Source of the DNA: Hypomesus transpacificus
Lineage: Eukaryota > Chordata > Actinopteri > Osmeriformes > Osmeridae
NCBI RefSeq assembly: GCF_021917145.1
Contig: NC_061074.1
Location: 8,675,382 to 8,739,381, forward strand
Direction of reading: 5' to 3'
DNA length: 64,000 bases
Position numbers and translations under genes: made by a program. This document shows positions 17,925 to 50,411 of this stretch, piece after piece; positions within the stretch are counted from its first letter, which is position 1; each line of letters opens with the position of its first letter. Under the pieces are notes generated by a model. That model was not told the origin of the DNA, did no database searches, and saw nothing but the letters and a program-made list of their open reading frames with translations.

Positions 17925-20900
17925 ACCTGTCAGGTGGTAGAGGTGTGTTCTCGGCTGGTCAGAGCCGAGACTGAGGTGGAGAGGCTGACTGAGACACAGA
18001 CATCAGCTCAGGAGAAATGGAGCAGCAAAAACGAACAGCTTTCGGCAGAACTCAGACATGCGACTGCAGAAAAGGTAAATGGGTCTCGACCTTAAAGGCA
18101 GGGTTTGGAAGTTTGGCGAAACTAGCAGTTTTGGCTTGAGTTTGAAGGGATTCACACCTAAATATCCCAACCCCTGCCTTCAAAGACACCCCCCCTAAAA
18201 ACACATGACTTTTGCCGGGAGGTAGATAGACAGACAGACAAGTAGCCTGAACAATTTGGTCCATCATTAATTTCAGTCCAAACTCAATGATGATGATGAT
18301 AGTACACTCCTGCTACGCTCACAGATATCAGATTTATGATTTATGTCAAACCTGTTTCTCAGGATGTGAAGTTTATTTAATCAAACGTGACAGAAGAGCA
18401 TCTCAACATCCCCCCTCCCCCAAATAGAAGTGTACATTATACAAAATAAACGTTGGTGTTGCTTCCTGACAAGTGATATCATGACGACCTGTGTCATCTC
18501 TGCCCTTCAGGAGTGTTTAAATGAAAAACTTGAGATCCTTCAAAGTAAGATCCAGTCTCTGGAAGATGAGCTCAGTCGAACCTTGGCCCAGGAGAAAGGG
18601 GAGAGCATGGGACCCATCATGGAGGTAAGCAGAGGCATCACAAATGTATCACTTCTGAGTCTGTCCCCTGTTTGATAGCAGATGTTATGAATATTGACAG
18701 TTTTACCTAAAACAAATCGCCTTTTCTTCACAGTGGGAGCAGCTGAGACAGGAGCTGGTTGCTGCCATGCTCAGACACACTGAGCTGGAGGTCACCATCT
18801 CCAGTCTGGAGGGGCAGATCCAACAGACCAAGGCCCAGCATGCAGAGGAGAAGGCCCAGCTTCAGTCAGAGAGCCAGCTTCTCCAGGAGGTTGTGTCTGA
18901 CCTCCAGGGGACCCTGAGTGCTCTCAAGGCTGAAAAAGAAGCTCTTCAACTGGCCTTGAAGGAACAGAGCGACTCTCTTAACACCCACCTCCAGAGCCTG
19001 AGCAAAGAGTTGGACCGCCTTACCACTGCCATTCAGCAGAAGGAAAAGGAGGTGCAGGCACTAAGAGAAGAGGTTCAGGAGGAGAGGAGGAAGGGAGGGG
19101 AGCTGAGTGTAGCCTTTGATAAACAGGGGAGCGAGGCCAGGGAAGAGATTCAGGGTTTGAAGGTCCAGGTGGAGACCATGGAAACATCTCTCAAGGGGGC
19201 CGAGAATGAGATCCAGGCCAGGGAAGGGCAACTGGTGAGGTTTCAAAATGAGAGCTCGGCACAGAAAGAGCAGCTGCGAGAGGAGATCCAGAGTCTGAGG
19301 GTTCACATGCACAGCATGGAGGAGTCCCTGAGGAAAGCCGAACAGGACATGAGGGCTAAGGAGGAGCAGCTCACAAGCTACCAGCAAGAGAACACCAAAC
19401 AAGCGGACATGCTGCAGGAATGTGTGGCCGCTACCAAGGAGGAGGTTGAAAGACTAAAGGAAGCACAGAGTGAAAAGGAGGTTCTCCTCCTTCAGGCCAC
19501 AGAGAAGATGGAAACCCTCCAGGCAGAGATCTCTACCGTCTCGTCCCTCTCTGCAGATAAAGACCTGCAGCTCAGCAGCCTGAGAGAGGAAGTAGCAAAC
19601 CAGAGCAACTCACTGAGGAGCGCTGAGCAGGAGGTGCAGGCCAAGAAGGAGCTGCTTGCCAAGTTGCAGGAGGAGAACATCCAACAGAAGGAGGTGCTGC
19701 AACAGGAGATCCAGTGCCTGAAGGTCCAGATGGAGAGCATGGGTGACTCCCTTAAGAGGGCTGAGGAGGAGATCCAGACCAAGGAGGAGCAGCTGGCTAG
19801 GATCCAGGAGGAGATTGTCCACCAGAAAGAGGAGTTCCAGGATCATGTGGCTTCCAATGAAAAGGAAGTGCAGAGCATAAAGGAGGAGGTGCAGGCAAAG
19901 GAAGAACAGCTGGAAGCATTGAAAATGGAGATCTGTTCCCAGAAAGGCATGCTGCAGGAGGAGATCCACAGTCTGAAGACACAGATGGAGGACATGGTAA
20001 CTTCTCTCAGTAAGGCTGAAGAGGACATCCACGCCAAAAAGGAGCAGCTGGCCAAGAAGGAGCAGGAGCATATCCAACAAAAGGAGGTGCTACAGAGCCA
20101 TGTGGCTGCCACAGAGGATGAGGTGAGAGAACTGAAGCTGGCTCAGAGTGAGAAGGAGGTTCTCCTCCTCCAGGTCACAGAGAAGATGGAGTCCCTCCAG
20201 GCAGAGATCTCTACCGTCTCGTCCCTCTCTGCAGATAAAGACCTGCAGCTCAGCAGCCTGAGAGAGGAAGTAGCAAACCAGAGCAACTCACTGAGGAGTG
20301 CTGAGCAGGAGGTGCAGGCCAAGGAGGAGCTGCTTGCCAAGCTGCAGGAGGAGAACATCCAACAGAAGGAGGTGCTGCAACAGGAGATCCAGTGCCTGAA
20401 GGTCCAGATGGAGAGCATGGGTGACTCCCTTAGGAGGGCTGAAGAGGAGATCCAGACCAAGGAGCAGCAGCTGGCTAGGAGCCAGGAGGAGAGTGCCCAT
20501 GAGGTGGAGGCTCTCCAGGGGGTGATCCAGGGTCTGAAATGCCAGGTGGACAGTGTGGAGGCTTCGCTGACAAAGGCCGATGATGAGCTGAAGCAAAGAG
20601 AAGAACTGCTGGCTAGGTTGCAGAACGACAGTGCCCGTCAGGAAGAGCTGCTTCAGGCAGAGATTCAGAGCCTGACTGTACAGGTTGGCAGCACGAGTGC
20701 CTCTCTTCAGAAAGCCTTGGAGGACACCAAGGCTAAAGAGGAGCAGCTCGCTATGCAACAGCAAGAGAGCACCCAGCTAAAGGAGGCATTGCAGGAGAAG
20801 CTGTCCATGTCTGATGAGGAAGTGCATAGGCTGAAACAGGAAGTCCAGACCAAGGAGGAGCTTCTAGAAATACTGAAAAACGACAGCTCGGCTCAGAGTG

Positions 20901-23900
20901 TGCTGCAAGAGGAGATCCTGGCTGTCAAAGAACAAATTGGGAACCTGAATGCCACTTTGAGAAAGGCTGAGGTGGAGATTAGCACCAAAGAGGAACAGCT
21001 GGCCAAGACCAAACAGGATGGTGCCCAACAGGTGGAGATGCTGCAAAACCTCTTGTCTGCTACTGAGGGAGATGTGGGAAGGTGGAAGCTGGCTCAGAGT
21101 GAGAAGGAGGTTCTCCTCCTCCAGGCCACAGAGAAGATGGAGTCCCTCCAGGCAGAGATCTCTACCGTCTCGTCCCTCTCTGCAGATAAAGACCTGCAGC
21201 TCAGCAGCCTGAGAGAGGAAGTAGCAAACCAGAGCAACTCACTGAGGAGCGCTCAGCAGGAGGTGCAGGCCAAGGAGGAGCTGCTTGCCAAGTTGCAGGA
21301 GGAGAACATCCAACAGAAGGAGTTGCTGCAACAGGAGATCCAGTGCCTGAAGGTCCAGATGGAGAGCATGGGTGACTCCCTTAAGAGGGCTGAAGAGGAG
21401 ATCCAGACCAAGGAGCAGCAGATGGCTAGCAGCCAGGAGGACATTGTCCATCAGAAAGAGGAGTTTCAGGATCATGTGGCTTCCAATGAAAAGGAAGTGC
21501 AGAGCATAAAGGAGGAGGTGCAGGCTAAGGAAGAACAGTTGGAAGCATTGAAAATGGAGATCTGTTCCCAGAAAGGCATGCTGCAGGAGGAGATCCACAG
21601 TCTGAAGACACAGATGGAGGACATGGTAACTTCTCTCAGTAAGGCTGAAGAGGACATCCACGCCAAAAAGGAGCAGCTGGCCAAGAAGGAGCAGGAGCAT
21701 ATCCAACAAAAGGAGGTGCTACAGAGCCATGTGGCTGCCACAGAGGATGAGGTGAGAGAACTGAAGCTGGTTCAGAGTGAGAAGGAGGTTCTCCTCCTCC
21801 AGGTCACAGAGAAGATGGAGTCCCTCCAGGCAGAGATCTCTACCGTCTCGTCCCTCTCTGCAGATAAAGACCTGCAGCTCAGCAGCCTGAGAGAGGAAGT
21901 AGCAAACCAGAGCAACTCACTGAGGAGTGCTGAGCAGGAAGGGCAGGCCAAGGAGGAGCTGCTTGCCAAGCTGCAGGAGGAGAACATCCAACAGAAGGAG
22001 TTGCTGCAACAGGAGATCCAGTGCCTGAAGGTCCAGATGGAGAGCATGGGTGACTCCCTTAGGAGGGCTGAGGAGGAGATCCAGGCCAAGGAGGAGCTGC
22101 TTGCCAAGCTGCAGGAGGAGAACATCCAACAGAAGGAGATGCTGAAAGACCATGTGTCGGCTTCTGAGGAGGAGATCAAGAATCTGAGGATTGATGTCCG
22201 GGCCAAGGAGGAGCTGCTGGACAGCTGGCAGAAGGAGAAAGCTCAACAGCAAGTCAAGATCGAGGGCCTGAAGGTTGACATGGAGAGTATGGACAACTCC
22301 ATCAGGAAGGCCAATCAGGAGATCCAAGCTAAGCAAGAGGAACTTTCCAAGCAAAACCAATTTGACACCCAACAGAGGGAGGTCTTGCAGGAGAAGTTAT
22401 CTGCCTCTGAGGAGGAGGTGAGGAGGCTGAAAGAGGACATTCAAACCAAAGAGGAGCTACTGGCCAGGCAGCAGCATGAGGTGCTGCAGCAGGAGTTGGC
22501 AACCAAGGAGGTGAACCTCAGGGAAAAAGACGTATTCCTTCACGAGAAGGAAGCGCTGGAAACCAGGGTCCTCCAGGCTGAAGGGGTTCAGAAGGAGCTG
22601 GAGAGGCAGCTTGAGTTGCTGCGCCTGGAGAAGGAGATCTTGGCTGCAGCCAAACGGACTATGGAGAGGAAGGGTCAAGCTTCCCATACGCTGGAGGAGG
22701 TACTGCAGCAGGAGATGGCTTCTCTACGGTCGGAGAGGGATAGACTCATGGAGATGCAGATGCAGTCTGAGGAGAGGGAGAAGCTGACAAGAGACATGCA
22801 GGAGCAACTCTCCGCAAAGACCGAGGCGGTTGAACATTACAAATCACAGGTAGGCCATCCGCCTAACTGCATCACACACAGACGTCTCTCTTATCTATAC
22901 ATTTGCATATGTGTGTGTAATATATAGACACACACACACAACCAACGGCCGGTGTTGTGGCATTACCAGGTGGAGAAGGCCAAGGCTCACTACGATGGGA
23001 AGAAGCTTCAGCTGCAGGAGAGCCAGGGCCAAGTGCAGGAACTCCAGCGCTGCCTGGAGATCAAGGAGCTCGAGTTCAAGGCCGTCTCTCAGGAAATGAT
23101 ACTGCTGAATATGGACCTGGATAAGGTTCGGAGCAATGAAAAGCTGCTCAGTAATCAAGTCGCCAGTCTGGGGGCACAGGTACTGTATTCATGCACACAC
23201 GTGCATATGTACAAGATGTTGGTCATAAACTAAAATGTGTGTACAGTATATGTGATTTTTTTCAAATCAAGTTATTATATAGGATTTTTTTTACCAGCTG
23301 GCATTTGCAGACCGTAACTTGCGTGAGCAGGGCAGGTATCGGGGGGGTCTGGAGAGCAAGGAGGCGGAGCCCCAGAAGATCCACACGCAACAAGACAAAA
23401 GCAACGACAGTCTCGATTACAGCTTGGATGACTCGCTTAACACCACACGGTAATCTTTACCATTCACCTCCACTATACCTGAATGACTTTGTGGGATTGA
23501 ACTCCCTCTTAAGACCCAGGCCAGTGTTTAACTTCAGATCTGCCCGTACAGGAAACCATCGTTTCCGGAGGAGTCCAGCACACCCATGGTCCGTAGCTCT
23601 GAGCGCCTGGCCTCGAAGCGCCGAGCTCTGCAAGGGGAATCCCTGGAGACCCTCTACTTCACCCCCATGAACACCCGCCAGCAAAACAGGTCAGTTCATC
23701 TCTCTGAAGGTCCATGTGCAACTCTGGTTATTTCACAAGCACCTCCTCTGAATTCTAAATAAGACTGAGACATAATGTGTGTGCTGATACTAGGACCAGT
23801 ACGGACAGGAGGCTTGAGGGCAGCATCACCTCTCTAGCGGAGCTGGCTCTGGATTCAGCCCGTAAACCCCCCACCTCCTCAGCCAGACGCCGTAGAACCA

Positions 23901-27324: not shown

Positions 27325-28715
27325 ATGGACTCGGACACAGAGGTTAAAAGGTGATTAAATCGTTCACAGATTTTACAGATCTGAAAGACAAGTAGTTCTA
27401 TGGCCTTTTCTGTCTAAAATGACAAGCATAATCGCACAGGAGCGGGGTGAAACGTAAATTAGGGTGTTTGCGGCAACCATTTTTGTCAGTTAAATATTAA
27501 GACTTAAGTTGTCACATACAGCTGGATATCAGCTTAACTTTTCACACGACACGTTTTGGTCTCTTTCAAGGATCCTCCGTGTGAGGAAGGATGATGGTCA
27601 TGAGCGTCCAGAAGCTCCTCCCTCTAGTTACGGCTCAATGAAGAGTGACGAAGAGGAGGAAGACATCACAGAAACAACCGAGCCACTGGCCATACCTGAG
27701 ATTCCAGAATCAATCTTTGGCACCACATTGTACTTTTCTTTTCGAATACATAAAGCCACAAAGAGTTATAAACAAACGTAATCTGTAATGGAAATGTTTT
27801 CAGTGCCAAGACGAAGCTGCTCTGTTTCCCAGGTTACAGCTGAACCGCTCAGACTCACCAGAGACCCTTCACACAGAGTTCACCCAGCAACAGTCCCTCT
27901 CTGCCAGAAAACATGGAGCATACATCACTGACAGGTAACACACCTGCATGGTTAACTAGCGCCAACAGAAAATAAACATTAGGAGCTTATCTCCAAAGCT
28001 TTGGGCAGGAAGCTTTATGTCTCCCTGTGTCCCTCCGCCTGTCCTTCTGTCTGCAGTAGATCGGAAGATGGTTTGGAGGAGGTGGAGGAGGATGGAGATG
28101 AGGAAGACTGGGACGGGTGCCCCCCAGACTCCCCAGAGCCCCCACCCATCGAGGACCCCGAAGACCAATCAGTGAGTGATGAGCAGAGTGAAGATTCCCG
28201 ACTGGGCCAGCTTCACCCTGAGCTAGACCTTCCGTACATATTTAAGGTGAGTTTGAAAACAGATTCTCTCATGGTGTGAAGCAGGGATTCCCAAACTGTG
28301 GGCCACGGCTATCGGTCGGGTTATCGCGATGGTTGTCGGTCGATAAAAAAAATAAAAATAAAAAAAAAGCACCATCTAAGTGCAGGGTTCAGAGGGGATA
28401 TTCTGACTTTCTGTTCTGGTTATTAAAAGTCATGTTTTTAACTTCAGCAGAACTTGTAGACCTGGCCTCCCCCCACCCCCTGGTATTACTTATCACTGTC
28501 CTGTGCATGTAGCCATATTTAACGTCATGTTATATGGAACTATATGAATGGTTGTAGTTACGCAGCTTACCTCTCTTTACAATGTGTGCTTACTTTGGCT
28601 TCCTTTCTCTGCAAGTGGGCCGCAAATTGGAAAAAGTTGGGAATTACTGGTGTAAAATGTACACAAACGATGGCCATATACAATTCTGTATTGCGAGTCA
28701 GTGTGTGTGTGTATG

Positions 28716-28782
<67 letters not shown>

Positions 28783-31059
28783 AAGCAATTGCATTGAAAG
28801 GATTATCTCTCTGTGGGTCTCCAGGCCATACAGAAAGCCTTATCTCAGCTGACAGGCGCTGAGATGTACCAGTACAAGCGCAGCCTGTGTTGGCGTGACC
28901 AGCCCTTCACCCTGGAGCAGCTGCAGGAGTGTGACACCCTGGACGTGGTGGACAAGATCATCGAGGCATATGGTACAAATGACATCCGACACCACATCCT
29001 CGTGGAGGTCCATTTCCAGTGCTAACGTTGTACTTTGTGGACTCAGTAACATCCCCTGTTCATCCTGTCTAATGCTCCGGGTGTTTTGATTGGACAGGGA
29101 GGGGCGAGGGGCTGGAGATAGCCATACAAACCATGCACGATATCCGAAAGCCCGAATTGGCAGAAGAGCTGGTCAAGACATGCAGGAGAGGTAAGAGAAG
29201 CTGTCCCAGAAGTGATGGAGCAGGTAGGATGGACTCACTCCGCAGGGTAGATTCAAACTGATGTATTTTCTGTCATTTCTCTCCCTGTTCCTTTTACTCG
29301 TCCCCTCCCCTCCCTCCCTCCCCCCCGCTTGTCATCTTCTGGTCAACTTTCCTTGTCAAATCCTTCTGCCCTCCCTCATCACCCAAGCACTGGTCCAGTT
29401 GTCTGTGAAGGTTGTGCTGAAGAGGAAACACAGCACCATCCACGAGGGCATCCCAAAGGCTGGCCAGCAAGTCAGCCTCCACAGAGTGTACACCGAGCCC
29501 CAGATATCCTCCTGTGGCCATGGTGGTATCAGCCCGTTTCACGAGTTCCCTGGCATGCCCCCGGCCCCTGTCCCCCAGGTGGCCTCCCCCGATACATTTG
29601 TCAGAGGGAATGATATATTCCGCACCCCTCCCGGGAGCGGTGCTGTAAGGACTGTCCTGACCACAGGGATCCCTGGGATAGGCCTAACGGTCGCCGTGCA
29701 GAAGTTCATTATGGACTGGTGCAAAGATCTAGCCAATAGGGTGAGTAATATCTCTCTAGGGAAGGACATAGTAATATATTTACAGTATGATGTGTATCTT
29801 GTGTCATTACAATAACAATATGTGTTTATAGTCCGCTCTTAAAAGCAGTGATTTAATTGCTGTGTCCCTTTCCTTAGGACATCCAGTTCGTCTTCAAAAT
29901 CACCTTCCGGGAGTTGAGGGTTAAAAAGTATCATCACATGAAGCCTGGGCAAACTCTGTCCTTCAAGAAAATGCTAACCTACTACTACCACGACTTGAAA
30001 GACACTAATTTACTGGAACAACCTGACTTCAAGGCTCTATTCATACTGGAGGGAATGGACCTCTACCAATCCCCCCTGGACTTCAAGGTACGCTCTCAGT
30101 CACTCACAACTTAATACACTCAAATTATTACACCCTAACTCTGATGCTGTACCTAGGGAGAAGTAGAACGTAACTGTAGGAATACCCGGAAGATTGTGGT
30201 AATTGTGAGAGGAGGGATCGGACTCAGTTAAACTCACAAAAACGTGTACCTTTAAACGGATTAAGTATTATAAATCTAAGGGTATTTAGATTCAAGGTTA
30301 TCTGGATGATGATGTGTATACCCATGGGTATTCTTACCCAGCCCTTCTCTGATAGTGGGTGGAAAAACGGAACAAACCAAAAGGCAAATGGGGGTCAAAG
30401 CTTAGGACTTGATACAGAAAACCTGTCTCAACCAGAAGATGGAACCAATCAGGTTCCTGGGCGAGAACGAAAACCGCACACCACTGACACACACGAGTGG
30501 TGGACGTGACACACGCACATCTCCTGTTCACCGCCTTCACAAGCTGTGGCCGACCCCAGCCCCTTCCACACACACACACCTCTCTCTGACTCTTCCTCTC
30601 CCCAGCCCCTTACACACACACACACCTCTCTCTGACTCTTCCTCTCCCCAGCCCCTTACACACACACACACACACCTTTCTCTGACTCTCCCTCTCCCCA
30701 GCCCCTTACAGACACACACACCTCTCTCTCTGACTCTCCCTCTCCTCAGCCCCTTCCACACACACACACACACACACACCTCTCTCTGACTCTCCCTCTC
30801 CTCAGACCCTTACACACACACACACACACACCTCTCTCTGACTCTCCCTCTCCTCTGTTCCCCTCCAGGACACTCCTGTCCTGTCTGACATCACTGAGTC
30901 GGTCTCATTAGACTGCCTGTTGGTGAACCTGATCCGAGGGTCTCTGATGCCCTCCTGCCTGGTCTGGATCACTGGCAGGCGTGCCGCCACCTCTCAGATC
31001 CCTACAGAGTACCTACACAAGGTGTACGAGATACAGGGCTACAGGTAGGGTGTGTGTGA

Positions 31060-31090
<31 letters not shown>

Positions 31091-32410
31091 GGGGGGGGGT
31101 GGAGTGGGGGGGGGGGGTGGATTAGCAACGAATGGCCTAAAACAGTGTGGTGTTGAAGTGTTTTTCATTCATCCCTCGTCCAGTAATGAGTTGAAGGAGG
31201 AGTTCCTGACCAAACGCTACACAGACAAGGACCTAGCTGCTCAGATCATCACCCAGATGAAGATCTTGCCCTCGCTGTACGACCTGTGCCAAATGCCCTT
31301 CATGTGCTGGATGGTCTCCATGATCTTCGAGAGGGGATTCCAGAACGAAGATAACTACGGAGACAAGCCCCCCAAGCTGACACCCTTCTATGTTCACCAC
31401 GTGATCGTTCAGACCAATCGCAGGCTGGAGAAATACTACGATGCCCCGCAAAACTACCAGGTTCTGATTGGTCGCTTTGATCGTTACTAGTTCCAGCGAC
31501 GGCAATAATTTATTCGTGACTGTCTGTTCCTGTTTTTCCCCTCTTTCTCTCTTTCTTTTTTTTTTCTTCTGTTGTTCTCAGACCTGGCAGGAGACCGACA
31601 GAGAGTTCTTGAAAAAGGTGGGCAAGATGGCGTTTAAGCTCCTGGAGAAGGGTCGCCCCTTGTTCCACGAGGAGGACATGAAGGATTACTCTCTGACCGT
31701 GGAGGAGGTGGCTGTGTACTCTGGCATCGTGACAGAGCTGCCGGTCGAGTCGAAAAAGAGGCGGACGTTCAGTTTCATACACTACACCTTCCAGGTAGCA
31801 CCCCCCCTCTGAAACGACAGATACTGGTCTTGCTTGTGCTGCCTGCTGAGCATGTTTGCGTCAAGCACATGATGTTGCATTCCTGCTTGCTTAAAAATAT
31901 TCTGATTATGTCGGGGTCAGTTTGTGACGGTTTGTTGCTTCATTCATTGCTTATCAATTATTTCACAATCAGAATATGACAGTTTGAGTAAATTCTTGCC
32001 CCCCCCCCCATAAACTGTTATTGTGATGTCATCCCCAGGAGTTCATGGCAGCCCTCTATGTGTTCATGAACTTCCGCAATGAGGGGAAGAATGTTCTAGA
32101 CCAGTCCCGCCTTATCTCCCGCCTCGTCAAGGACCGTGCCATGGTGGACCTGCTCCGCAGCGCCATCGACCGAACCCTGAGTGCTCCTTTCGGCCGATAC
32201 GAGATGTTCCTGCGCTTCCTGTGCGGCATGGCCCAGAGGATCAACAGCAAAGACATGCTGCGAGGGCTCTTCTTTGAGCACGATACCCCTCTGGTGAAGG
32301 GGCTGGAGGAGGCGGCCAGGCTGCTGCAGAAGAGGATGGAAAGCGCCGAGCCCGAGAGACAGGCCAACCTGGAAGAGTGCTTCAGAGAGCTGACACAGTC
32401 TGATGACTGA
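27325..32410 (+). CDS. Pyrin-FISNA-NACHT (NLR-type) protein lacking LRRs, with degenerate Walker motifs
   Basis: NLR proteins are cytosolic immune sensors; this one looks like a pseudo-ATPase. Twelve coding exons (27325-27350, 27571-27729, 27833-27934, 28057-28246, 28825-29007, 29109-29190, 29388-29740, 29878-30087, 30869-31044, 31184-31460, 31582-31794, 32039-32410) join to 780 residues. Residues 1-159 are acidic and disordered, with the fish NLR-like SSYGSMKSD. Residues 160-247 form a pyrin domain (ALSQLTGAEMYQYKRSL...LDVVDKIIEAYG). A FISNA-like stretch (RVYTEPQISSCG) leads into NACHT. The P-loop reads GIPGIGLT (341-348), with Leu where Lys is expected. Walker B reads LFILEGMDL (419-427), with Glu423 for Asp and Leu427 for Glu. 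LVWITGRRAA and FSFIHYTFQEFMAALYVF are typical NLR motifs. The protein ends at TQSDD, before any LRR. The exon 6 acceptor and the donor at 31461 are the weakest junctions. I do not recognise a named orthologue. Confidence 0.9.
28282..28649. mobile_element. hAT-type MITE in NLR-gene intron
   Basis: 368 bp with imperfect terminal inverted repeats (CAGGGATTCCCAAACTGTGG and, inverted, CAGTAATTCCCAACTTTTTC) and a flanking 8-base near-duplication, GTGTGAAG (28274-28281) versus GTGTAAAA (28650-28657). The 5' end is of the Charlie-like hAT type. No transposase is encoded. Confidence 0.65.
28718..28781. repeat. (GA)n microsatellite
   Basis: About 32 GA dinucleotides in the same intron, 43 bases before the acceptor of the pyrin exon. 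Being purine-rich, it leaves a purine tract rather than a pyrimidine tract upstream of the acceptor. Confidence 0.9.
30567..30868 (+). repeat. Pyrimidine/CA minisatellite carrying repeated acceptor-like ends
   Basis: Six imperfect units of about 45-55 bases of the form CTCTCTGACTCTCCCTCTCC-(C/T)CAG-CCCCTT-(AC)n lead directly into the real acceptor at 30867-30868. Each unit resembles a polypyrimidine tract followed by AG. Confidence 0.8.
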
Positions 32411-32738
32411 ACCGACCAGGGGAGGACTTCCTGTGACGCATGGCTCAGACTCTACACATGCGTATCCTTTCAGCATTTTTATATTGGGACTTGGGAAAGT
32501 GTTATGCTGAAACCTGGAGACTCAAAGCCACAACACCAAACCACACAGTCACTATGTGAAGGCTGTGACATGGTGTTGACCTACACTAGTTTTAGAGACC
32601 AACATAGAGGAATATGATTTTAAGTGTTATGTGGGGAGTGGCTGTGTCATAATTACAAGGCTTGAGTCTTGTGAGTACATGATGATCAAACCCGTTTAAG
32701 TGATTGAAGTGTGAATGCAGTCAATGATCTATAAAAGT

Positions 32739-32744
32739 AATAAA
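32739..32744 (+). terminator. Likely polyadenylation signal of the NLR-type gene
   Basis: AATAAA on the plus strand 330 bases after the stop codon. Confidence 0.5.
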
Positions 32745-33180
32745 TGTACTTAAGTGGTGAACTGGGCTTGTAACTAACTTTTTTCCTCACTGTCCCAGTA
32801 CCGTCCCAAAGTGAAAAATGAACCGTCCCAAACTGAACTTGACCCGTCCCAAAAATGTAAATTCTTGTGTTTATGCATTTTGACATTCTGACATGGGTCT
32901 AGGTTCTTTGCAACACTAATTAAGTAATCCATACAGTCATGGGGGCTTAAATCAAAGTCTGAATTTCAATGTCAATACATACACAATAGAATACACAATT
33001 TTCTTGCTTGTTTCATGGTGGGGCTAACACAAATCTTGTTGTGACTGTAGCACAACCAGCCTTACCCTGCTGCCGCCCATGTGGGTAGTAGCTCTATGTC
33101 TTGTGCTTCGTCAAACTTGACATTACTCTATTGAAAGTGGTTGAACGGCCGAGAACAAGACCCACATGACTAATGTAACT

Positions 33181-33335
33181 GCCAAAAAGAAAGAAAACCA
33201 CAAAACATAAGTTCTATTTATGAAATGGGTAAACTGTTGATTTTCTTATCTAGAACCTCATAGAGGATAACAAGTGTTAGGGGGTTAGTGACTCCACATA
33301 GAAAAATAAACTTTGCAAACTCAGCACAAAACCTG
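33181..33335. repeat. Left member of a direct repeat flanking lectin copy 1
   Basis: AAGAAAGAAAACCACAAAAC followed by TAGAGGATAACAAGTGTTAG and AACTTTGCAAACTCAGCACA recurs in the same orientation at about 38172-38333. The two members bracket lectin copy 1, which suggests an older tandem duplication. Confidence 0.7.
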
Positions 33336-33447
33336 TGTGCAGTGGCGCCCCCACATGGACAAACCCTTACGCCTCTCACACGGCCTGTTGTAAACCAAAT
33401 ACACTGTCTTCCAGATGAGTACAGTCACTGTGTGTGTCTATGACGTG

Positions 33448-33644
33448 CAGAGCCGGCCCAAGGCATAAGCGAATTAAGAGGCTGCTTAGGGCCCCTGTGG
33501 CCACTAGAGGGCCCCCAAGAGCACATTAAATTACAGCTTGATTAAAAAAAAATATTAACGTTATGTCAACGGTAATTGTACAAATTCCGAGGCGCCCCCT
33601 AATCAATTCTGCGTAAGGCCCCATAAAGGCTTGGGCTGGCCCTG
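33448..33644. mobile_element. hAT-type MITE, filled site
   Basis: 197 bp with ends CAGAGCCGGCCCAAGGC and, inverted, CAGGGCCAGCCCAAGCC. It is flanked by ATGACGTG (33440-33447) and GTGACGTG (33645-33652). The duplicated segment at 58041-58050 has a single TATGACGTGC with no insert, which defines the element boundaries directly. Confidence 0.8.
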
Positions 33645-34307
33645 GTGACGTGCATGTGCTCCAGGTGGTGGTCACGTTAGTCTGTTAGCAGGTGTTGACA
33701 GGGGAACTCTCTCTAGACCTGGTCTAACATTAGGAACATGGCGGCTTCTAAATGTAGCCATCTACCAGGTTTAAATTCACAGTTTAGAAGTTTCTCTTCA
33801 ATTCACAACCGACATTAAAGAAAATAGCTTGTTTCAGTTCAAAATATGGCAGGGATAGATGCAAGAGTTTGGATGTGTGGGTTCCACAGAAGACAAGTGT
33901 TTGAGCAGCTGGTGCTGGTGCAGAGAGGACAGGCTGTGTCTGTCTTCTCCCAGTGTCTCTGAGATGGGAGAGGATGATGATCAGATGATCTCAGTCCCTT
34001 GCGTACCTCTCTTCCTTCTCATTCTGTATTTCATTCTCTCTTCCTCTTTCTTTATAGTTCCCTTTTTCACTTAATTAAAATTAGGTAACGTTTATCTCTC
34101 TTTCTTCACTTCAAGGGCCTTGTTTTTAGTTCAATTCATATAAAACCTGACAATAGTTATTGGTACTGTATGGCTTATCTTAGCTGCTATAAAATTTTAT
34201 AGCAGCATATTTCATATTTGATAAATATTGGCTATCAAATATATCTCAGAATGGCATATTTGGTGTTAGGGCTTGATTGAATGGGGAATGAATGATTGAT
34301 TCATTAT

Positions 34308-34313
34308 TTTATT
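34308..34313 (-). terminator. Possible polyadenylation signal of lectin copy 1
   Basis: AATAAA on the minus strand about 540 bases downstream of the lectin stop. It is a weak call because the region is AT-rich. Confidence 0.3.
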
Positions 34314-34849
34314 TGTGTCATATACAAAAGTCCCCAACCCTCATGGGTTTACGAGACCAAAAAAGTACAGTTACAATGGTCAAACGTCTTTAAATGTCAT
34401 TACAAAATTACTTAAATTACCTTACAGCTCAGTCTTGAACAAAATATTGTCTTTTCCCCCCCAAGATTACAAACAAAAGCTGCTACTAAAATGGTTCCCT
34501 TCCTGAAGCATACATCCAGGTTCATCTAACCAAATTGACATATATGGAGGACATTTTACTGAAAACTGCAACCCCTACATTATCATAGGACAGTAAAACC
34601 ATTTTTTTTAAACTTAATTCTCAATTTCACCTAGCTCACACAACAGACAAAGCCTTCCCTCCTCTGGAATAACATTATTAATCCTGCCTGTCTCAAGGGT
34701 TAATGATAATGTTCCTGAACGTAACGGGCACACACAGACATTTATCTTTTGTTTAAATTATGCTTCACATAGGATTCTACCCTTTAGCTATCCTCTATGA
34801 AACAGTAAGGCTGGGGTACATACTGGATGCTGGTGTATGATGGATAGTG

Positions 34850-36830
34850 TCAAGCCATTTTCTCACAGATCCATGTTTGAACAGTGGTACAAGATAAATC
34901 ATTCCAGTTACTTTTGGGATTAGAGTTAGAAACAATATGAGCACAGTCTTCCTTAGCACCCCATCCTCCATTGTCAGGCTGATATTGCCTCCAGTACCTG
35001 TGGGGTCAGCAGAGAAGCACACAGACAATGTTGTGACAGTTTGGTTGGTAAACCATGACACAGATGCTGTTGCCTATACAGGGTTATAGAGCGACACAGA
35101 AGCAGAACAGGAGCTACTAAAGAGGTGTTTTCTCACATAGTAGACAGCAGCCTCATCATTCCAGTCAGGGTACGAGTGACACAGGAAGTGTTGTTTCATT
35201 TGTTGTTTAATTTGTAATTTGTTTAACTACATGCTCTAATCGCTCTGGATAAGAGCGTCTGCTAAATGACTAAATGTAATGTTTCTTCCCATTGGCACTT
35301 ACTTGCTTTTCACAATGAATGCATCATATTTTGGCTACCTGCAATGTTTTTGGGGGTATCTCATTGTTTATGATCATTGACCTATGCACTTTTGTAAAGC
35401 TCTCTCTTGGAAGTTGCTTTGGACAAAACTTAAAGCGTCTGCTAAATGAATACATGTAAGTGTAGGGAAAGAAGAGCAGTTGTTTCTTACGTTGTGGTGG
35501 GTACAGTCCCATCTACCCACTTCCAGGTGCCCTCAGTGTCTCTGTCACTCAGACCAATCCAAGGGGATGTTTTACCTAAGATGGAAGAGATGAACTCCTG
35601 CAATGGAAAGTTCAGAAGTTTACAGTGATAGTTACAGTGATACAGTGAGTATAGATTGTGCTCCTCCCCTCATTTTCTCTTTCCCACCAGACACACACAC
35701 ATGCTTGTTTTACTAACCTAGTGATGGCCGACAATTCACTATGATGACCTTATTATAATTCTAACCCTGACACAAATTTTAACCATAATCCACAAAAAAT
35801 CTAGTGAAAGAATTCTTGAAGATGTGGGGACAAAGAAAATTGATCCGCAAAACAATGTTTTTCATAGTTTACTATCAGGTGGAAACAAGACCACACACAC
35901 ACCTGTTCATCAGAGCTTTCTATGATCACCAGGTCAGCTCCTTTCCTCCTGCAGTCCTGCCTGCTGTCATACCAGGATTGTTTCTTATCAGACAGGAAGT
36001 AACAACTGTTATAATACTTCTTCCATCCATCAGGACAAGATCGTTCTGTGAACAAGAGAGATGTCGAATGTCTCCTTCACAGTGTGGGGTTATTAAAATA
36101 ACTGACACATTTACTGTCAAGGACAGCGTTTAGCTATTTGGGACTAACTAGTCTTCAACTGATCTCTCTCCTCAGTCAGGTTCAAGAGGCTGGTTTTCAA
36201 CTGATCTCTCTCCTCAGTCAGGTTCAAGAGGCTGGTCTTCAACTGATATCTCTCCTCAGTCAGGTTCAAGAGACTCTCTTCTAAACCGTGCACCATCTCT
36301 TTATCTAAAACAGAACAAGAGAAATATCTGAACACTCCTTAGCTCTCTGAGTGCACTTAATATCAGGGTTTACATCAACATCCTGGGCTCCATGTTGCTG
36401 GTGCAAACAACAACCTCCTGTCCCCTCGCCACTCCTCCCTAATAAAGGTAATCTAGGGATGAAATAAAAGATGCAGAATCTGGGATACCATGTGGTACAG
36501 GACCAGGTGATCTCCAGCTAAGCGTTACCCAGTGTCTGAAGTAGCTTTGAGTAAAAACCAATACTCACTGTAGGTCCAGTAGACTATGATCCCAACCAGG
36601 AGAAGCAAAGACAGCAACCCCGAGCCCAGGACAGCAGCCTTGTAGCGTCTGCTCTCACCACCTAACCAGGACAAAGATGTTCATAGTTTCTCCTCCACTG
36701 GAATGATCCCTAGATTACATTGATCCGCACAGATCACTGATTTACCTGATGGTTTAGTACCTGTAGATTCTCCTGGATCACTGAACTTCACATGGTTTTC
36801 AACATTGGCGTAGATGTCTGACATCTCCAT
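34850..36830 (-). CDS. Type II C-type lectin receptor (galactose-type QPD), copy 1
   Basis: A predicted single-pass type II lectin of the CD209/asialoglycoprotein-receptor-like group found in fish. Six exons, 36830-36746, 36661-36569, 36304-36149, 36045-35903, 35597-35491 and 34997-34850, join in phase to 243 residues. A short cytoplasmic tail with the tyrosine motif IYANV precedes a membrane span ([20 protein letters not shown]). The neck has three 14-residue repeats of the type [14 protein letters not shown], each with an NLT sequon. The lectin domain starts [16 protein letters not shown] and has [15 protein letters not shown], a following Glu (AKEDC), WNDLSC and a terminal WICEKMA. QPD implies galactose rather than mannose preference, and the calcium ligands look intact. 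The tyrosine motif is only ITIM-like because the -2 residue is Asp. The first-exon donor could be either of two in-phase GT sites; I chose GTAAAT. Confidence 0.86.
35191..35457 (+). mobile_element. LINE 3'-end insertion in lectin copy 1
   Basis: 267 bp flanked by AAGTG at 35186-35190 and 35458-35462; copy 2 has a single AAGTG at 59622-59626 and no insert. It resembles the 3' part of the LINE fragment at 37.6-38.2 kb and contains two tail motifs: CGCTCTGGATAAGAGCG near 35240 and a decayed version near 35415. Confidence 0.75.
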
Positions 36831-37585
36831 GATCTGCCCTGGTCTCAGTCTACCAGGTTCTTGGTGCTGTATGGTGCTCTGTGGTCTCAGACACTTGCAC
36901 AAACAATTATTGTGAAAAATTGTGAAATTGAAGAGAATTTTAGTGAGAAAAAGGAAGTCTTTAAGAGTTTAAAGAAGCTGCCTTCACCCTAAGACCACTT
37001 CCTCTTTAGCAGTTCAGACATTTATACTCATGCGGTTTATAGAAAGACACCCTGGTCTAGATTTCTAGATTTCAAGTAGTTCTGGAAGCAAAAAAAGTGG
37101 TATCTGTAGAAATGTTAACTGGACAGTGAGAGTGTAGGGGTTAAATATTGGCCAAACAACCAAAACTAATTCCCCTATGATTTAAAGAAAGATGGGCAAG
37201 TGAACATTGTGTTAGCATGAACCAAATCATGCCAATACCAATAGAATTACAGTTATTTGACTCTATGGATTAAATCATAGCAAGAATGGTCAATGTAAGG
37301 TTAAATTAAATGCACATTTAATAACATTGCAAATGAATGAAAACAATTACAAGGCAAACATGTTACAAAATGAAGGTTAAAGCCCAATTTATACTTAGGT
37401 CGCAGACACTTTTAAAAAGGTCGCCGACAGAAATGGCGTCACAGTCGACACTTTTAACTGTCGCCTACCCTTAACTCTATGTGCCTACCAGGAGACATTT
37501 CTACTGGCGCTGATGTCGTCACATAGTGTCGCGCAAGTGTGATTGGCTAGTAACTCTTACCTACGCTACCATGATCAGAGAGACA
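36831..37585. other. 5' flank of lectin copy 1
   Basis: Upstream flank of the lectin, shared with copy 2 up to about 37130. Beyond that lies an AT-rich stretch and a GTCGC-rich repeat-like patch at 37390-37545. No coding exon was recognised. Confidence 0.45.
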
Positions 37586-37589
37586 GCAA

Positions 37590-38170
37590 GGTGTGAGGAA
37601 GGAGAATAAGTACAAGGACAAGCCAGAGCTGAGGAGAAGGTCTCAGGAGATCAACTCCCAGTGGTGGAATCAACTCCCCACCTCCATCAGAGACACAGAC
37701 CGTCTCTCCACCTTCAAGAGAAGGCTCAAGACGCACTTGTTCCGGTAGTACAACGGTAATTAGGAATGGTTTGCTGAACCCAATGCTAGTTTCCTCAAGG
37801 ATCACAATGACTCTTGCTTAGAGACTTGTTGCTCTTGTTGGTCAGTGGTAACTGATTTAAACTTTTGTATTCGCTGCGAAATATTCTATTTTAGTTAATC
37901 TTATTTTTATTTTTACTGTTGCTTGCTTTTTCTACAGGTACACTTGCACTTAGAAATTCATGTTGTTTAATTGTAACTTGCTTAACTACATGCTCTTATG
38001 GTTTCTTCCCTTTGGCACTTATTTTTTGGTTGTTCACAATGTGTGCTTCTTGTTTTGGCTACCCGCAATGCTTTGGGGCTATCTTGTTGTTATTATCAGT
38101 GACCCATGCACTTTGTAAAGCTCTTTCTTGGAAGTCGCTTTGGATAAAAGCGTCTGCTAAATGAATACAT
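37590..38170 (+). mobile_element. 3' fragment of an L2-like non-LTR retrotransposon
   Basis: Residual coding sequence reads WWNQLPTSIRDTDRL then STFKRRLKTHLFR and stops at 37747-37749, which is the usual end of fish LINE ORF2. The 3' UTR ends in GCTTTGGATAAAAGCGTCTG plus CTAAATGAAT. The same tail occurs on the SINEs in this window. It is 5' truncated. The L2/UnaL2-type assignment rests on the stem-loop tail. Confidence 0.7.
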
Positions 38171-38171
38171 T

Positions 38172-38333
38172 TAAAAAGAAAGAAAACCACAAAACATATT
38201 TTTTATTTATGAGACGGGTAAACTTTTGATTTTCTTTATCTAAAACTTAATAGAGGATAACAAGTGTTAGGGAGTTAGTGACTCATATCTTCCAGAAAAA
38301 TCAACTTTGCAAACTCAGCACAAAACCTGGAAG
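38172..38333. repeat. Right member of the direct repeat flanking lectin copy 1
   Basis: Matches 33181-33335 in the same orientation, including TAGAGGATAACAAGTGTTAG. It begins directly after the LINE tail and diverges near 38335. Confidence 0.65.
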
Positions 38334-38495
38334 TGACATCACAGTTTAGACCCCCAGGCAGAGATCTTTACACGGTTCATACAGCCTGTGTAAACCTGCT
38401 CAGTGTGAACAATGACGTAACGTTAACCATGAGACTCCTGTCGTTTCAGCCATGAAGAAACAGATGTACAAACCAGGAGTTAAAAAAACAACAGC

Positions 38496-38501
38496 TTTAT
38501 T
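38496..38501 (-). terminator. naalad2 polyadenylation signal
   Basis: AATAAA on the minus strand about 60 bases after the naalad2 stop. It gives a compact 3' UTR. Confidence 0.55.
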
Positions 38502-38556
38502 GTGGACAGACATGGTGAAGCACACAAGGGCTTTGGATGTGTGTGTGTTTGAATGT

Positions 38557-41500
38557 TCAGGAAGGAGGTATGAGTGTCATGCCGGCAGCATGCACAGTAA
38601 AAGCTGCAATACTGATTTGACGCCTCACTTCCTCCCATGCCTTCTCTGGATTGGCTGCGTGTTCTATGTCAAACAGCGAATCATAGATGCCGGGGAAAGA
38701 CTCGCCTGCATACTTGTTATGGCTGCTGGGGGCAAAGATCACATGTCTGGGGGGAGGAAGGTGGAGAGGGATGGGACGGAGGACATTATTTATTTATTTA
38801 GTTATTTTATAGATGAGATAACATCATCTTGGTGTATGTGTGTATGTGTGTGTGTTACTTGCCTGTAGAAGGGTCTGCCAGGTAAACCCAGTGGGTCGAT
38901 GAAGGCTCTTTCCAGATACATCAGCTGGTCATTCACCATACGCACCTGGAGGGAGCTGAGAAACACACACACACACAACTCTCAATCAGTGATACACACA
39001 CACACGCACACACCAAGTTGCTCCTGATTGGCCGGCCAGTGCCTTGCATGGCAGCTCCGCCGCCGTCAGTGTGTGAGTGTGTGTGAAGGCGTGAATGAGT
39101 GGCAAATGGAAAAGCGCTTTGGGTGTGGCTGCTAGGTGGTGCTAAACTGCGCTTTATGAGTGCAGTCAATCGACCATATATGTACCATGTATACAGACAA
39201 ACTTACTCTGTCCTGTCCAATGTTTTCAGACGATCATGGAAGTCTGTGGCTGCTACAGTGAAGTTCTCCACTGCAGAAAACAAGGAATCTGGACAAACAC
39301 AATAACAATTTCAGTATGTGGGTGTGTGGGAGAAAATGTATGTGTGTGTTTACATTTAGTCATTTAGCAGACGCTCTTATCCAGAGCGACTTACAGTAAG
39401 TACAGGGACATTCCCCCGAGGCAAGTAGGGTGAAGTGCCTTGCCCAAGGGCACAACGTAATTTGGCACAGCCAGGAATCGAACCAGCAACCTTGGTCATG
39501 TGTTGGTCATGCCTTACCAAACGTCACTCTGTATGTCACCAGCTCATCAGGGTGTCTCTTCCCCAGCTGAGCGATGGTTTGGGCGTATTTCTCCAACGCC
39601 TGAGCATACTCGCGGACGTCCAGGGGCAGCAACAGGGAGTCAGCCAATCGGAAGACGAGGCCGGCTCTCACCCGAGCAACGGCTTGGAGCTTCCGGAAGG
39701 TTGGGTCATAGAACTTCTCCACCACCTCAAATGTCTCATAGACACTGTGGTACACCGGGTAGCTACTGTACCTCTCTGTCTTCTACACACACACACACAC
39801 ACACAAAGATAAAGACATATTCACAATTCATCTTAACTGCAGATCAGAGAGGCAGTGTCTCTGAGGCTTACCCTGTTCTTGGTGTATCTGGCCCTGCCTG
39901 CAGCAATGCCCAGACGGATGAAATAGGCTTCAAAGTCACTGCCTGAACCCAATTTACTAATCCTGCAGAGAGAGGGAGGAGAGAGGGTGGAGAGAGGGGT
40001 TGGGTATAGCTCAGCGGCAGAGAGAGGGGGGAGAGAGGGGTAGGGTATAGCTCAGCGGCAGAGAGAGGGGGGAGAGAGGGGTAGGGTATAGCTCAGCGGC
40101 AGAGAGAGGGGGGAGAGAGGGGTAGGGTATAGCTCAGCGGCAGAGAGAGGGGGGAGAGAGGGGTAGGGTATAGATTAGCGGCAGAGAGAGGGGGGAGAGA
40201 GGGGTAGGGTATAGCTCAGCGGCAGAGAGAGGGGAGAGAGAGGGGTAGGGTATAGCTTAGCGGCAGAGAGAGGGGGGAGAGAGGGGTAGGGTATAGCTCA
40301 GCGGCAGAGAGAGGGGAGAGAGAGGGGTAGGGTATAGCTTAGCGGCAGGACATGCAGACTGCAGATGAAGACGTCACAAGGTCAAATCCACGCTTGAGTG
40401 TCACTTTAGATGAAAGCGCCTGCTAAATGAATTCATCATTATAAAAAAAGATTTAGGAGGGAAAACAGAAAGGTGCCTGTTCCTCTCATGAGGTCCACAT
40501 CAGTACGTAGAGGGGGACTAGCTTGGGAGACGGTGGAGGAAGGGGGCGGGGGTCACCTGGGAGCATCGCGGTCGTCAGTCCAGTTGTCGCGTTTGTGCCA
40601 GCTCTCATAAAGAGACATGCCTTCCTCTTCCTCCTCTGGACTAGCAATCTGTACACACAACCCCAGCCAGGATTAGATGTACAGGAACACTTCTTTATAA
40701 AACACATGTTAAATGAGGATGTGTTTGTTATATTCCAGGTTTGACTGACATACCTGTTTAGTGAGGTCGTATACCAGAGTGTGCAGAGAAGGAGTGCAGT
40801 CTACCCTCAGAGTATACATACCTGCAACATACACAGTCACAACCTGCTCTCTCTTTTACCTACTAGAAGCAGTCATTTTTCAACAACACGCACACAGTCT
40901 CACCTTCTATGGCTGAGTCTGCATTGATGTAAGCCACTGCTCTTTCCTGGAGCAGTTTAGCATTGTCCTACACAGTTGGGAGAACATGTTTTTACTGTTT
41001 GTACGTGTGTACATGTGTGTGCATGTGTGCGTGTGTGTGTGTGTCTGTTACCTCAGCCCACTCTGTGGATCCTAGAAGACCAAACTCCTCTGCATCCCAG
41101 CTGGCAAATACTACAGTCCTTCTGGGCCTCCAGCCTACAGAACCACACACACACACACACACACACACTTGGTATGCAACCCATCACTTCCAAAGAAACT
41201 GCAAACTGAATGTGTTGATATGTGTGTGTGTGTGTATTGCCCCCCTAACACACCTCTTGTGAGCAGTCTCCCAGCGCTCCTCACGGTCTCATGCACCACA
41301 GCGGCACCAGAGGTCGGATCGATCCCCCCAAACACCCAGGCATCGCGGTGCCCCCCCAGGATCACGTAGCGGTCTGGTCACCATGGAAACATGTTGTTTT
41401 AGGAAGGGAAGGGGTCCAACATCAGAGTCACGCTTCCTTTAACCAGTCCAAGCTGCTCGTTGCCAAACTAATAAACTAAACTGATTTGAGAAAGCAAATA

Positions 41501-43612
41501 ACTGTCCAGGAGTCTTAAGTCCCACTGTTGGGAGGGTTTAGCTATGTAGTTAAGCTGCTGTAAGTGATAGCACTTCTGGACTGGATCTCTCTGATGGAGA
41601 GTTATGAGTCAGTGAGGGTGTCCCTGCTGACTGGTCTGGGGAGGGTGTGTGATGTTCTACCTGGTTCCACCGCCCCTCTGACCCTCCCGATGACGTTGTA
41701 GATGCGGGTCACCACGTTGTTGGTGTGGATGTTCATACGGACCTTCCTGGGACAGGCACACGTTCACACACATAGGATTTCTGTATTATTTTTTTTTATA
41801 TTATTATTTTTCTGTTCTGTTATCAACATTACTGTTTGTGGTAGAAAACCTCCTCCACCTCATTGTGTGTGTATGTGTGTGTATGTGTGTGTTGGTGTGT
41901 GTGTGTGTGTGTGTGTGTGTGTGGAGGGATAGAAGGGTTCCCACAGGACATACAAGGGCCTCTATTCTGTTGCTCTGGGCTTCTGGCCAGAGGGCTTTTG
42001 AAGACAAAGGCAGAGAGAAAGAAAGAATAGAGACAGAAAGAATAGAAAGGAGAGAATAAGGGAGGAGAAGAGAGGAGAGGAGAAGGGAAGAAAAGGGAGG
42101 AGAGGACAGGATGTAACGGTGTAAAGGGAACTTACTGGGCCTGGAAGCCTTCAGTAAAGCCTGGCCCAATCCGATAAGAGATGTTCAGCGCTCCTTTCCA
42201 GTTATTGGGTGGAATCTCTCCTCCCATATTCCTATTGGATGTCACATCACACAAAGGATGGAGGATTAGACATAACTTTTAGGGAAGTGAGGTACATCTC
42301 TGTAACATCGTCAATGATCTCATTTCCTGTCAGCTGTGTCCTACTGCTCGTCTGGCAGAATGTGCTCACACCTCATGGGATACTCATACTCACTTTAACA
42401 GATGAATGGCATCATGGTAGCCAATGGGATGCACTGGAATCTTAGGAAGCCCCACCCCCTCTTCTTTACTGGTTCTATAGGTGTACTCTATGTTTGAGAA
42501 GAAAAAAAAACAGTTAGTGCACAAATGCACAAACACTTATACACACCTGTCCAAAACGCGCACACAGACCCCCACACATGATGTATAATGATGTGTGGGT
42601 GGGTAATGTAGTCCATTCTCCTTCTCTCTGTGCTGGAAACACCTTTGGCAGGGTACCCTGGTGTGAGTGGGTCTCCCGCTCCGTTCAGGTTGAGGACGTT
42701 GCCCCGCTGGACTCCGCCTCCTGGGAGGTTCCATCCCCGGGGATACGTCTGCACAGACCCACCAGCACCACACACAGCAACATTAGGTGTTCAGAACCAC
42801 TCAGTATAGCACCACTGGTTTGATATATGGGTTTTAAAACTTTTGGATTGTGTAGTCAACTGTGGTTTGTATGATGGCTGAGTTAGAGGGACTTCTGGGT
42901 AATGTTGTCAGTGTGGTTGGTATCTGGATGGCTGAGTCCAAGGGAATTCTGGGTAGTGTAGTCAGTGTGGTGCTGTGTACCTCCACTCCTGGGGCACAGT
43001 AGTCAGCTGGGTCTGAAAAGAAGATGATCCCACTGGCCCCAGCCAGCATGGCGTTCTTCACCTAAAAGACAGGAAGTCAGATGGCTGAGCGATTAGGGAA
43101 CCGGGCTTGTAATCTGAAGGTTGCCAGATCGATTCCCGGCCATGCGAAATGACGTTGTGTCCTTGGGCAAGGCACTTCACCCTACTTGCCTCGGGGGGAA
43201 TGTCCCTGTACCTACTGTAAGTCGCTCTGGATAAGAGCGTCTGCTAAATGACTCAATGTAAGTAGGGTGAAGTGCCTTGCCCAAGGACACAACGTCATTT
43301 CTCACGGCCAGGAATCGAACCGCCAACCTTCTGATTAATAGCCCAATTCCCTAACCGCTCAGCCATCTGACCCCCCCCCCATCTCTCCCAATCTGAGGGA
43401 GTGTCTGGGTCTAGCCTGTTGGTGGGAGTCCACTCTACCTTGTTGCCTCGGAATATCTTCCCGTATCTGGCGATGGCAATTTTCCCGCTCACGTTGATGC
43501 CCATCTCTCGCTCCAGCTGAGAGAAGTCCTCCGTGCGACCATAGTTCACATACACCAAGTCACCCTGGGATACACCGCACGTTAGTGTGTGTGTGTTTCT
43601 GCGTGGGACTGT

Positions 43613-50055: not shown

Positions 50056-50411
50056 GTACAGAAGCCCTGAATGGGAATGGAGTAGGAGATTGTCTTGTGC
50101 TAGGAGCATGTATCGTTGCTTCTGGGTTACATTTACATTTAGTCATTTAGCAGACGGTCTTATCCAGAGCGACTTACAGTAAGTACAGGGACATTCCCCC
50201 TGAGGCAAGTAGGGTGAAGTGCCTTGCCCAAGGACACAATGTCATTTGGCACGGCCGGTAATCGAACCAACAACCTTCTGATTAATAGCCCGATTCCCTA
50301 ACCGCTCAGCCATCCATGGGTGTGTGTGTGTGTATGTTTGTACCGTAGCCATGAATATGAATGGAATAAGGGATTGTCTTATGCTAGGAGCGTTTATCCG
50401 TTGCTTCTGTC

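Follow-up and report, generated by a model that had tools for sequence, protein, structure and literature searches.

We observe in the genome of Hypomesus transpacificus an intact, spliced NLR gene whose NACHT domain has lost both the P-loop Lys and the catalytic Glu of Walker B. The encoded protein has a pyrin domain (PYD), a FISNA domain, a NACHT domain, a winged helix (WHD) and an HD2 domain, and no LRRs were found in it; every other NACHT of the genome that could be aligned at the P-loop retains the Lys. The usual description of NLRs is of receptors that ATP switches. With a probability of roughly 0.45, we read the gene as a functional, single-copy PYD-FISNA-NACHT-WHD-HD2 NLR without LRRs that does not cycle ATP, that is perhaps the orthologue of zebrafish nlrc3l, and that brakes myeloid inflammation.

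Gene structure and domain architecture

The gene occupies positions 27325-32410 of the + strand of the window, by which we mean the whole stretch of DNA that was analysed (64,000 nucleotides, C15:8675382-8739381). It runs from an ATG at 27325 to a stop codon at 32408-32410 through 12 coding exons that encode 788 residues. Each of the 11 introns is GT-AG and the frame is open across all 12 exons, so splicing bears out the intact frame reported in a preliminary description of the sequence. The donor of exon 2 is ambiguous and lies either after 27777 (AAC followed by GTAATC), which we adopted and which the residue numbering here assumes, or after 27729 (ATT followed by GTACTT). Either choice preserves the frame, and the two products differ by 16 residues.

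All exons are placed by splicing. Exon 1 (27325..27350) carries the start codon, exon 2 (27571..27777, or ..27729) encodes an N-terminal peptide with SSYGSMKSDEEEE, and these are followed by exon 3 (27833..27934) and by exon 4 (28057..28246), which encodes an acidic linker. The two parts of the pyrin domain are encoded by exon 5 (28825..28972) and exon 6 (29098..29190), as seen also from Pfam and from alignment to NLRP3. Exon 7 (29388..29740) encodes FISNA and the altered Walker A, and exon 8 (29878..30087) the NACHT domain with the altered Walker B, both with Pfam and alignment as further evidence; these two exons and the intron between them fill the span 29388-30087 exactly. By alignment, exon 9 (30869..31044) retains the sensor 1 Arg480 in WITGRRAA and exon 10 (31184..31460) retains the P-motif Pro540. 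The winged-helix domain and a retained sensor 2 His661 are encoded by exon 11 (31582..31794; Pfam and alignment), and HD2 and the stop codon by exon 12 (32039..32410; Pfam). The string FSFIHYTFQEF straddles the junction of exons 11 and 12.

The Pfam hits on the 788-residue protein are all above curated cut-offs. They are PYRIN at residues 177-247 (PF02758, E 1.8e-06), FISNA ahead of NACHT at residues 263-333 (PF14484, E 5.8e-09), NACHT at residues 343-514 (PF05729, E 3.1e-16), the winged helix NOD2_WH at residues 603-659 (PF17779, E 1.9e-08), and NLRC4_HD2 at residues 661-785 (PF17776, E 4e-14). The NACHT match is not a chance match, because its Pfam E-value is joined by a phmmer match to NLRP3 at 6.2e-22. 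Pfam found no LRR family in the 788-residue protein, the protein gave no B30.2 hit, and two LRR-like patterns had no match in the three + frames of 32411-40000 downstream. One intron interrupts the pyrin domain, and five interrupt the stretch from FISNA to HD2, which is spread over six exons.

The closest solved match of the pyrin domain is ASC (E 5.5e-05). All 23 other pyrin matches in the genome span at least profile positions 2-74 of 76 in a single open frame, and the gene's own split pyrin domain is not among these 23. We compared it with ASC and with five paralogue domains out of the 23, those within the fetched stretches. Where ASC and the five paralogues have Lys or Arg, the gene has Tyr, and its Ser stands at a position that holds Glu or Asp, or once Gln, in the others; the three Asp of DxxDxxD are retained in all seven sequences. 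By these residues the pyrin domain of the gene is divergent in sequence. The absence of this basic and this acidic position, which may belong to the ASC filament interface, counts against the braking role proposed below.

Walker motifs and the nucleotide site

The P-loop reads GIPGIGLT (29666-29689) with a Leu codon CTA at 29684, and Walker B reads LFILEGMDL (30037-30063) with Glu431 in place of Asp and Leu435 in place of Glu, both as first described. The P-loop Leu had been numbered Leu347; it is Leu355 here, 8 higher, and the choice of exon 2 donor does not explain the offset. Leu355 aligns to K232 of NLRP3, leaving Walker A with no Lys. In place of the DGxDE of Walker B the protein has EGMDL, in which D302 and E306 are replaced and D305 is retained. 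In both motifs the protein departs from an active STAND/AAA+ ATPase.

We mapped ten NLRP3 positions (K232, T233, R262, D302, G303, D305, E306, R351, P412 and H522) that the literature treats as nucleotide-site motif residues (PMC9633759). In the alignment to human NLRP3, three of the ten are changed, namely K232 to Leu355, D302 to Glu431 (a conservative change), and E306 to Leu435. The other seven are retained as Thr356 (T233), Arg384 (R262), Gly432 (G303), Asp434 (D305), Arg480 (R351), Pro540 (P412) and His661 (H522), and the three P-loop glycines are retained too. The protein has thus lost the Lys and the catalytic Glu, whereas it keeps the Pro that faces the adenine and the His and Arg that face the phosphate. 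With seven of ten positions retained, the earlier claim that all NACHT ATPase motifs are substituted was too strong. The three substitutions require at least 2, 1 and 3 nucleotide changes, and a sequencing error is unlikely since it would have to account for 6 nucleotide changes across three codons.

Comparable mutants of NLRP3 show what such losses can do. Relative to wild type, NLRP3 K232A has an ATP turnover of 0.34 in vitro, ASC specking of 0.15 and IL-1beta of 0.08, and D305A/E306A has a turnover of 0.22 in vitro, specking of 0.27 and IL-1beta of 0.16 (PMC9633759). Because such mutants still hydrolyse some ATP and seven of the ten sites are retained here, the description of the protein as unable to cycle ATP was an overstatement; by analogy with the turnovers of 0.34 and 0.22, some ATPase activity may remain. 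The motif GxxGxGKT is reported as common to 14 of 14 human NLRPs (PMC9633759). Within the excerpts of the mostly open-access literature that we searched, no statement was found of nlrc3l, or of any vertebrate NLR, without the P-loop Lys, and the same search found no paper that combined NLR, NACHT and wording for a degenerate or missing Walker motif.

Comparison with other NACHT genes of the genome

A search of the genome (437 Mb, 376 contigs) with PF05729 gave 52 matches over the cut-off. These were covered by 51 stretches, of which 46 matched the NACHT query and 45 aligned at the P-loop. All 45 have the P-loop Lys, a control that is biased to good matches, since the NLR gene itself is absent from the 52 PF05729 rows and degenerate NACHTs could be missed. 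In the same 45, the Walker B Asp column has 44 D and 1 N, and the Glu column has 43 E, 1 G and 1 K. Five of the 50 rows in the P-loop column alignment have no letter there; L041, L048, L050, L054 and L057 are unaligned to the query and are left out of the 45. In all five unaligned loci a GxxxxGK[ST] string is present in the frame of the PF05729 match, but the search pattern itself demanded K. The 45 loci include recent duplicates, and a limit of <70% identity leaves 15 of the 35 FISNA-type rows. No other alignable NACHT in this genome shares the missing P-loop Lys, and few share the missing Walker B Glu (2 of the 45 others). An hmmscan of two same-genome NACHT fragments, for which coordinates were guessed, found no family.

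One further locus, L056 (G000:C15:2051000-2057000, frame L056_+0_604), has an unusual NACHT-like region. It retains the P-loop Lys (GAVGTGKS), but in its Walker B, ALFLFNGMEKM, Asn takes the place of Asp and Lys that of Glu.

Among the best candidates scored in a protein-level search of the genome, 62 rows comprise 8 of the gene's own exons and 54 others. The best-scoring other row has 37% identity over 537 query residues, and none of these 54 exceeds 47%; within the candidates scored, we reject an assembly duplicate or haplotig on this ground. The paralogue analysis covered the fetched stretches, beyond which lie rows such as C22:12700052, C17:15026703 and C1:12016484. In the relatives, the FISNA-NACHT-to-HD2 part is mostly one open frame of 500-680 aa. 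LRR-like frames follow it in the three neighbourhoods for which downstream DNA was analysed, one of which also has a B30.2-like frame (all of these are pattern matches only), and a pyrin frame lies upstream in relatives L070, L071, L055, L052 and L069. The SMKSD-type N-terminal peptide of exon 2 is also found in one relative, L074, and because of this shared peptide a common origin of the gene with the NLR-C type is likely.

Relation to known NLRs

Fish NLR-B30.2/NLR-C genes resemble the gene in having FISNA and NACHT, the SMKSD-type peptide (L074) and, in some relatives, an upstream pyrin frame. That family is described with FISNA-NACHT-WHD-HD2 in one exon, LRRs, often B30.2, and a Walker A Lys (PMC4852459); in contrast, the gene has its PYD over 2 exons and FISNA to HD2 over 6, with no LRR or B30.2 hit and no Lys. 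Its GIPGIGLT also fails the Walker A consensus of the family, printed as G[IV]AG[IV]AGK[TS] (PMC4852459). We reject membership of NLR-B30.2 on exon structure, LRR and Walker A. The closest solved relative is human NLRP3 (89 of 355 aligned residues identical), whose sensor and P-motif residues are retained in the gene, although NLRP3 has LRRs and full Walker motifs. NLRP-type NLRs in general share the N-terminal pyrin domain and the NACHT with winged helix and HD2, and differ in that the gene has no C-terminal LRR hit. Human NLRP10 is likewise an NLRP without LRRs and is named among negative regulators (PMC9174460), but by its description it is set apart by a GxxGxGKT Walker A and a reported interaction with ATP/ADP (PMC9633759).

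The closest described gene is zebrafish nlrc3-like, beside which we set the gene on the basis of published descriptions. Zebrafish Nlrc3-like has a NACHT and lacks LRRs (PMC9174460), and NLRC3-like is tabulated outside the NLR-B30.2 family as ENSDARG00000088041/R4GEV1_DANRE (PMC4852459, Table 1); the protein described here is likewise a NACHT protein without LRRs outside that multigene family. Among the NLRC3-like proteins of teleosts, a review lists a PYD-FISNA-NACHT class (PMC9978379). Of the zebrafish NLRs that stand outside the NLR-B30.2 family, a group that includes NLRC3-like, it is stated that the sequence round Walker A is atypical and that FISNA is absent (PMC4852459). The first of these statements fits a gene with GIPGIGLT; the second counts against nlrc3l orthology, since FISNA is present here (E 5.8e-09), but it is made of the group as a whole, and the review has FISNA in an NLRC3-like class. 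Taken on architecture, it is plausible that the gene is the orthologue of zebrafish nlrc3l. We take ENSDARG00000088041/R4GEV1_DANRE to be zebrafish nlrc3l, and zebrafish Nlrc3l is reported to bear a pyrin domain in work by Shiau in 2013.

The published role of the zebrafish gene is a restraining one. Loss of nlrc3l yields auto-inflammatory macrophages, a phenotype that is reversed by loss of myd88 or by re-expression in macrophages and that is retained in nlrc3l/asc double mutants (PMC12886890). Loss of zebrafish Nlrc3-like raises inflammation, and in mycobacterial infection loss of asc did reverse the nlrc3l effect on bacterial burden (PMC9174460). For NLRC3-like of both zebrafish and goldfish, a review reports an interaction with ASC (PMC9978379). 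That asc loss was without effect on the macrophage phenotype and myd88 loss reversed it argues against a simple ASC decoy. The scaffold, decoy or adaptor role first suggested for the protein would, by analogy, fit the published role of zebrafish Nlrc3-like if the gene is its orthologue.

Maintenance of the gene

In a tree built with 15 FISNA-NACHT relatives, redundant ones removed, and with three other rows, the gene falls inside the FISNA-NACHT clade (96/95) on an end branch of 1.5 changes per column; its placement there is left unresolved, as the program warns that the place of long rows is unsure. Under neutral drift at 10% divergence, about 9 stops would be expected, and the probability of no stop is 1.3e-4. 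The GC content is 0.55/0.36/0.70 at the three codon positions and 0.46 in the introns. That so long a branch carries no stop, no frameshift and no damaged splice site is not as expected under neutral drift and argues for long maintenance of the gene as a protein.

We found 44 columns that are invariant in the 15 paralogues, and the gene keeps 29 of them and changes 15, with an overall identity to the same paralogues of 29-35%. The changes fall on 3 of 10 nucleotide-site columns and on 12 of 34 others, which is no enrichment. In a leave-one-out comparison L052, the next most divergent full-length relative, retains 44 of 59 invariant columns, with the Lys retained. Nucleotide-site columns are changed about as often as others, so the ATPase site may have been lost through relaxation and not through selection. 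The earlier view of a selected pseudo-ATPase rather than decay is thus upheld for the intact gene, by its open frame, the neutral expectation and the branch, and not for selection on the site loss (3 of 10 against 12 of 34). Relatives were looked for in a viral contig collection, with no pattern match, and in a genome contig collection, with 5 pattern matches and none confirmed.

Proposed function and alternatives

A functional, non-cycling NLR would keep an NLR-like fold although the Lys of its P-loop and the catalytic Glu of Walker B are gone. The ATP-driven cycle of opening and oligomerisation would be unable to run, and the protein would be fixed in one form, probably closed and possibly holding ADP. 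Because the NLRP3 mutants speck poorly (PMC9633759), a protein without the Lys, the Glu and an LRR is expected to be a poor nucleator that may still hold ADP and retain its closed fold. Its pyrin domain and NACHT surface could then contact partners in the inflammasome/MyD88 pathway without nucleating filaments, and the outcome would be damped myeloid inflammation with no ligand sensing. A wider version, which we put forward tentatively as a possibility, is that the gene is a dedicated pseudo-NLR of teleosts, an ancient, single-copy, intron-rich PYD-FISNA-NACHT gene (nlrc3l or a sister) that, by losing its ATPase site and its LRRs, changed from a sensor into a constitutive brake on inflammation in macrophages.

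Several other explanations have to be weighed against the non-cycling brake. The divergent pocket might bind and slowly hydrolyse nucleotide, so that the protein switches like other NLRs at low activity. The seven retained nucleotide-site positions, the three P-loop glycines and the residual turnover of NLRP3 K232A and D305A/E306A (0.34 and 0.22 in vitro) favour such a protein; the same mutants are weak in cells (specking of 0.15 and 0.27; PMC9633759), the gene loses Lys and Glu together with a change of Asp to Glu, and Pfam found no LRR sensor, and we regard a low-activity switch as rather unlikely. It is still less probable that the NACHT is constitutively open and presents the PYD to ASC or a pyrin-caspase with no ATP step, as a positive scaffold; we think this improbable. 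The pyrin domain is recognisable (E 1.8e-06, with ASC as best solved match at 5.5e-05), but Walker A/B-dead NLRP3 is inefficient at forming specks (PMC9633759), zebrafish Nlrc3-like restrains inflammation rather than driving it (PMC12886890, PMC9174460), and the pyrin domain has its Tyr where ASC and the five paralogues have Lys or Arg.

A lineage-specific or decaying copy, freed from its old role and drifting toward a pseudogene in H. transpacificus, would account for the length of the branch (1.5 changes per column), the 15 changed columns among 44 paralogue-invariant ones, and nucleotide-site losses that are not enriched over other losses, and no orthologue was seen in the two contig collections. 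A pseudogene is opposed by the intact frame and the neutral stop expectation: 788 codons and 11 introns contain no stop, frameshift or broken splice site where about 9 stops would be expected at 10% neutral divergence. The GC pattern is of the coding type, and 29 of the 44 invariant columns are kept against an overall paralogue identity of 29-35%. We therefore retain decay as an alternative and judge it improbable.

If the gene is a functional brake that does not cycle ATP, a NACHT scaffold alone could regulate inflammation in an ATPase-impaired NLR without LRRs, as an NLR counterpart of the pseudokinase. The need of Nlrc3-like for ATP would be directly testable in zebrafish, where nlrc3l mutants exist. 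A merely local, relaxed copy would be of modest interest.

Neighbouring genes and other features of the window

Upstream of the NLR gene lies a NUMA1-like gene, seen as a weak match of its C-terminal motif (E 0.038), and downstream lie a glutamate carboxypeptidase II/III-like gene (E 9.6e-29) and, near the end of the window, a NADPH-oxidase-like exon. Provisionally, these neighbours are named NUMA1, NAALAD2 and NOX4. In the literature searched, no paper was found that named three of nlrc3l, numa1, naalad2 and nox4. An open frame of 1409 codons at 18698-22927 (+) is by position part of the NUMA1-like gene and contains near-identical long coiled-coil-like repeats, for example QAEISTVSSLSADKDLQLSSLREEVANQSNSLRSA, which recurs. 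This suggests a recent internal duplication of the NUMA1-like rod.

A C-type lectin gene is present in two copies (35452-36895 and 59617-61461, - strand) whose main pieces are 95% and 91% identical. The lectin neck is a 14-residue repeat, with 3 copies in one gene and 13 in the other, that is encoded by a 42-bp minisatellite with an N-x-T sequon in every unit. Neck length thus seems to change by repeat number.

Rfam gave three matches in the window, all outside the NLR gene, and no tRNA was found in the window; the three are UnaL2 LINE 3' elements at 39354-39407 (-), 43204-43257 (+) and 50137-50190 (-). A perfect inverted repeat of 645 nt is formed by 46762-47406 and 48058-48702, with 651 nt between the arms, and each arm contains about two copies of a 133-bp tandem repeat. 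It looks like a recently moved foldback-type element. Finally, a 41-bp tandem repeat with 9 copies (39979-40348) adjoins an exon of the glutamate-carboxypeptidase-like gene.
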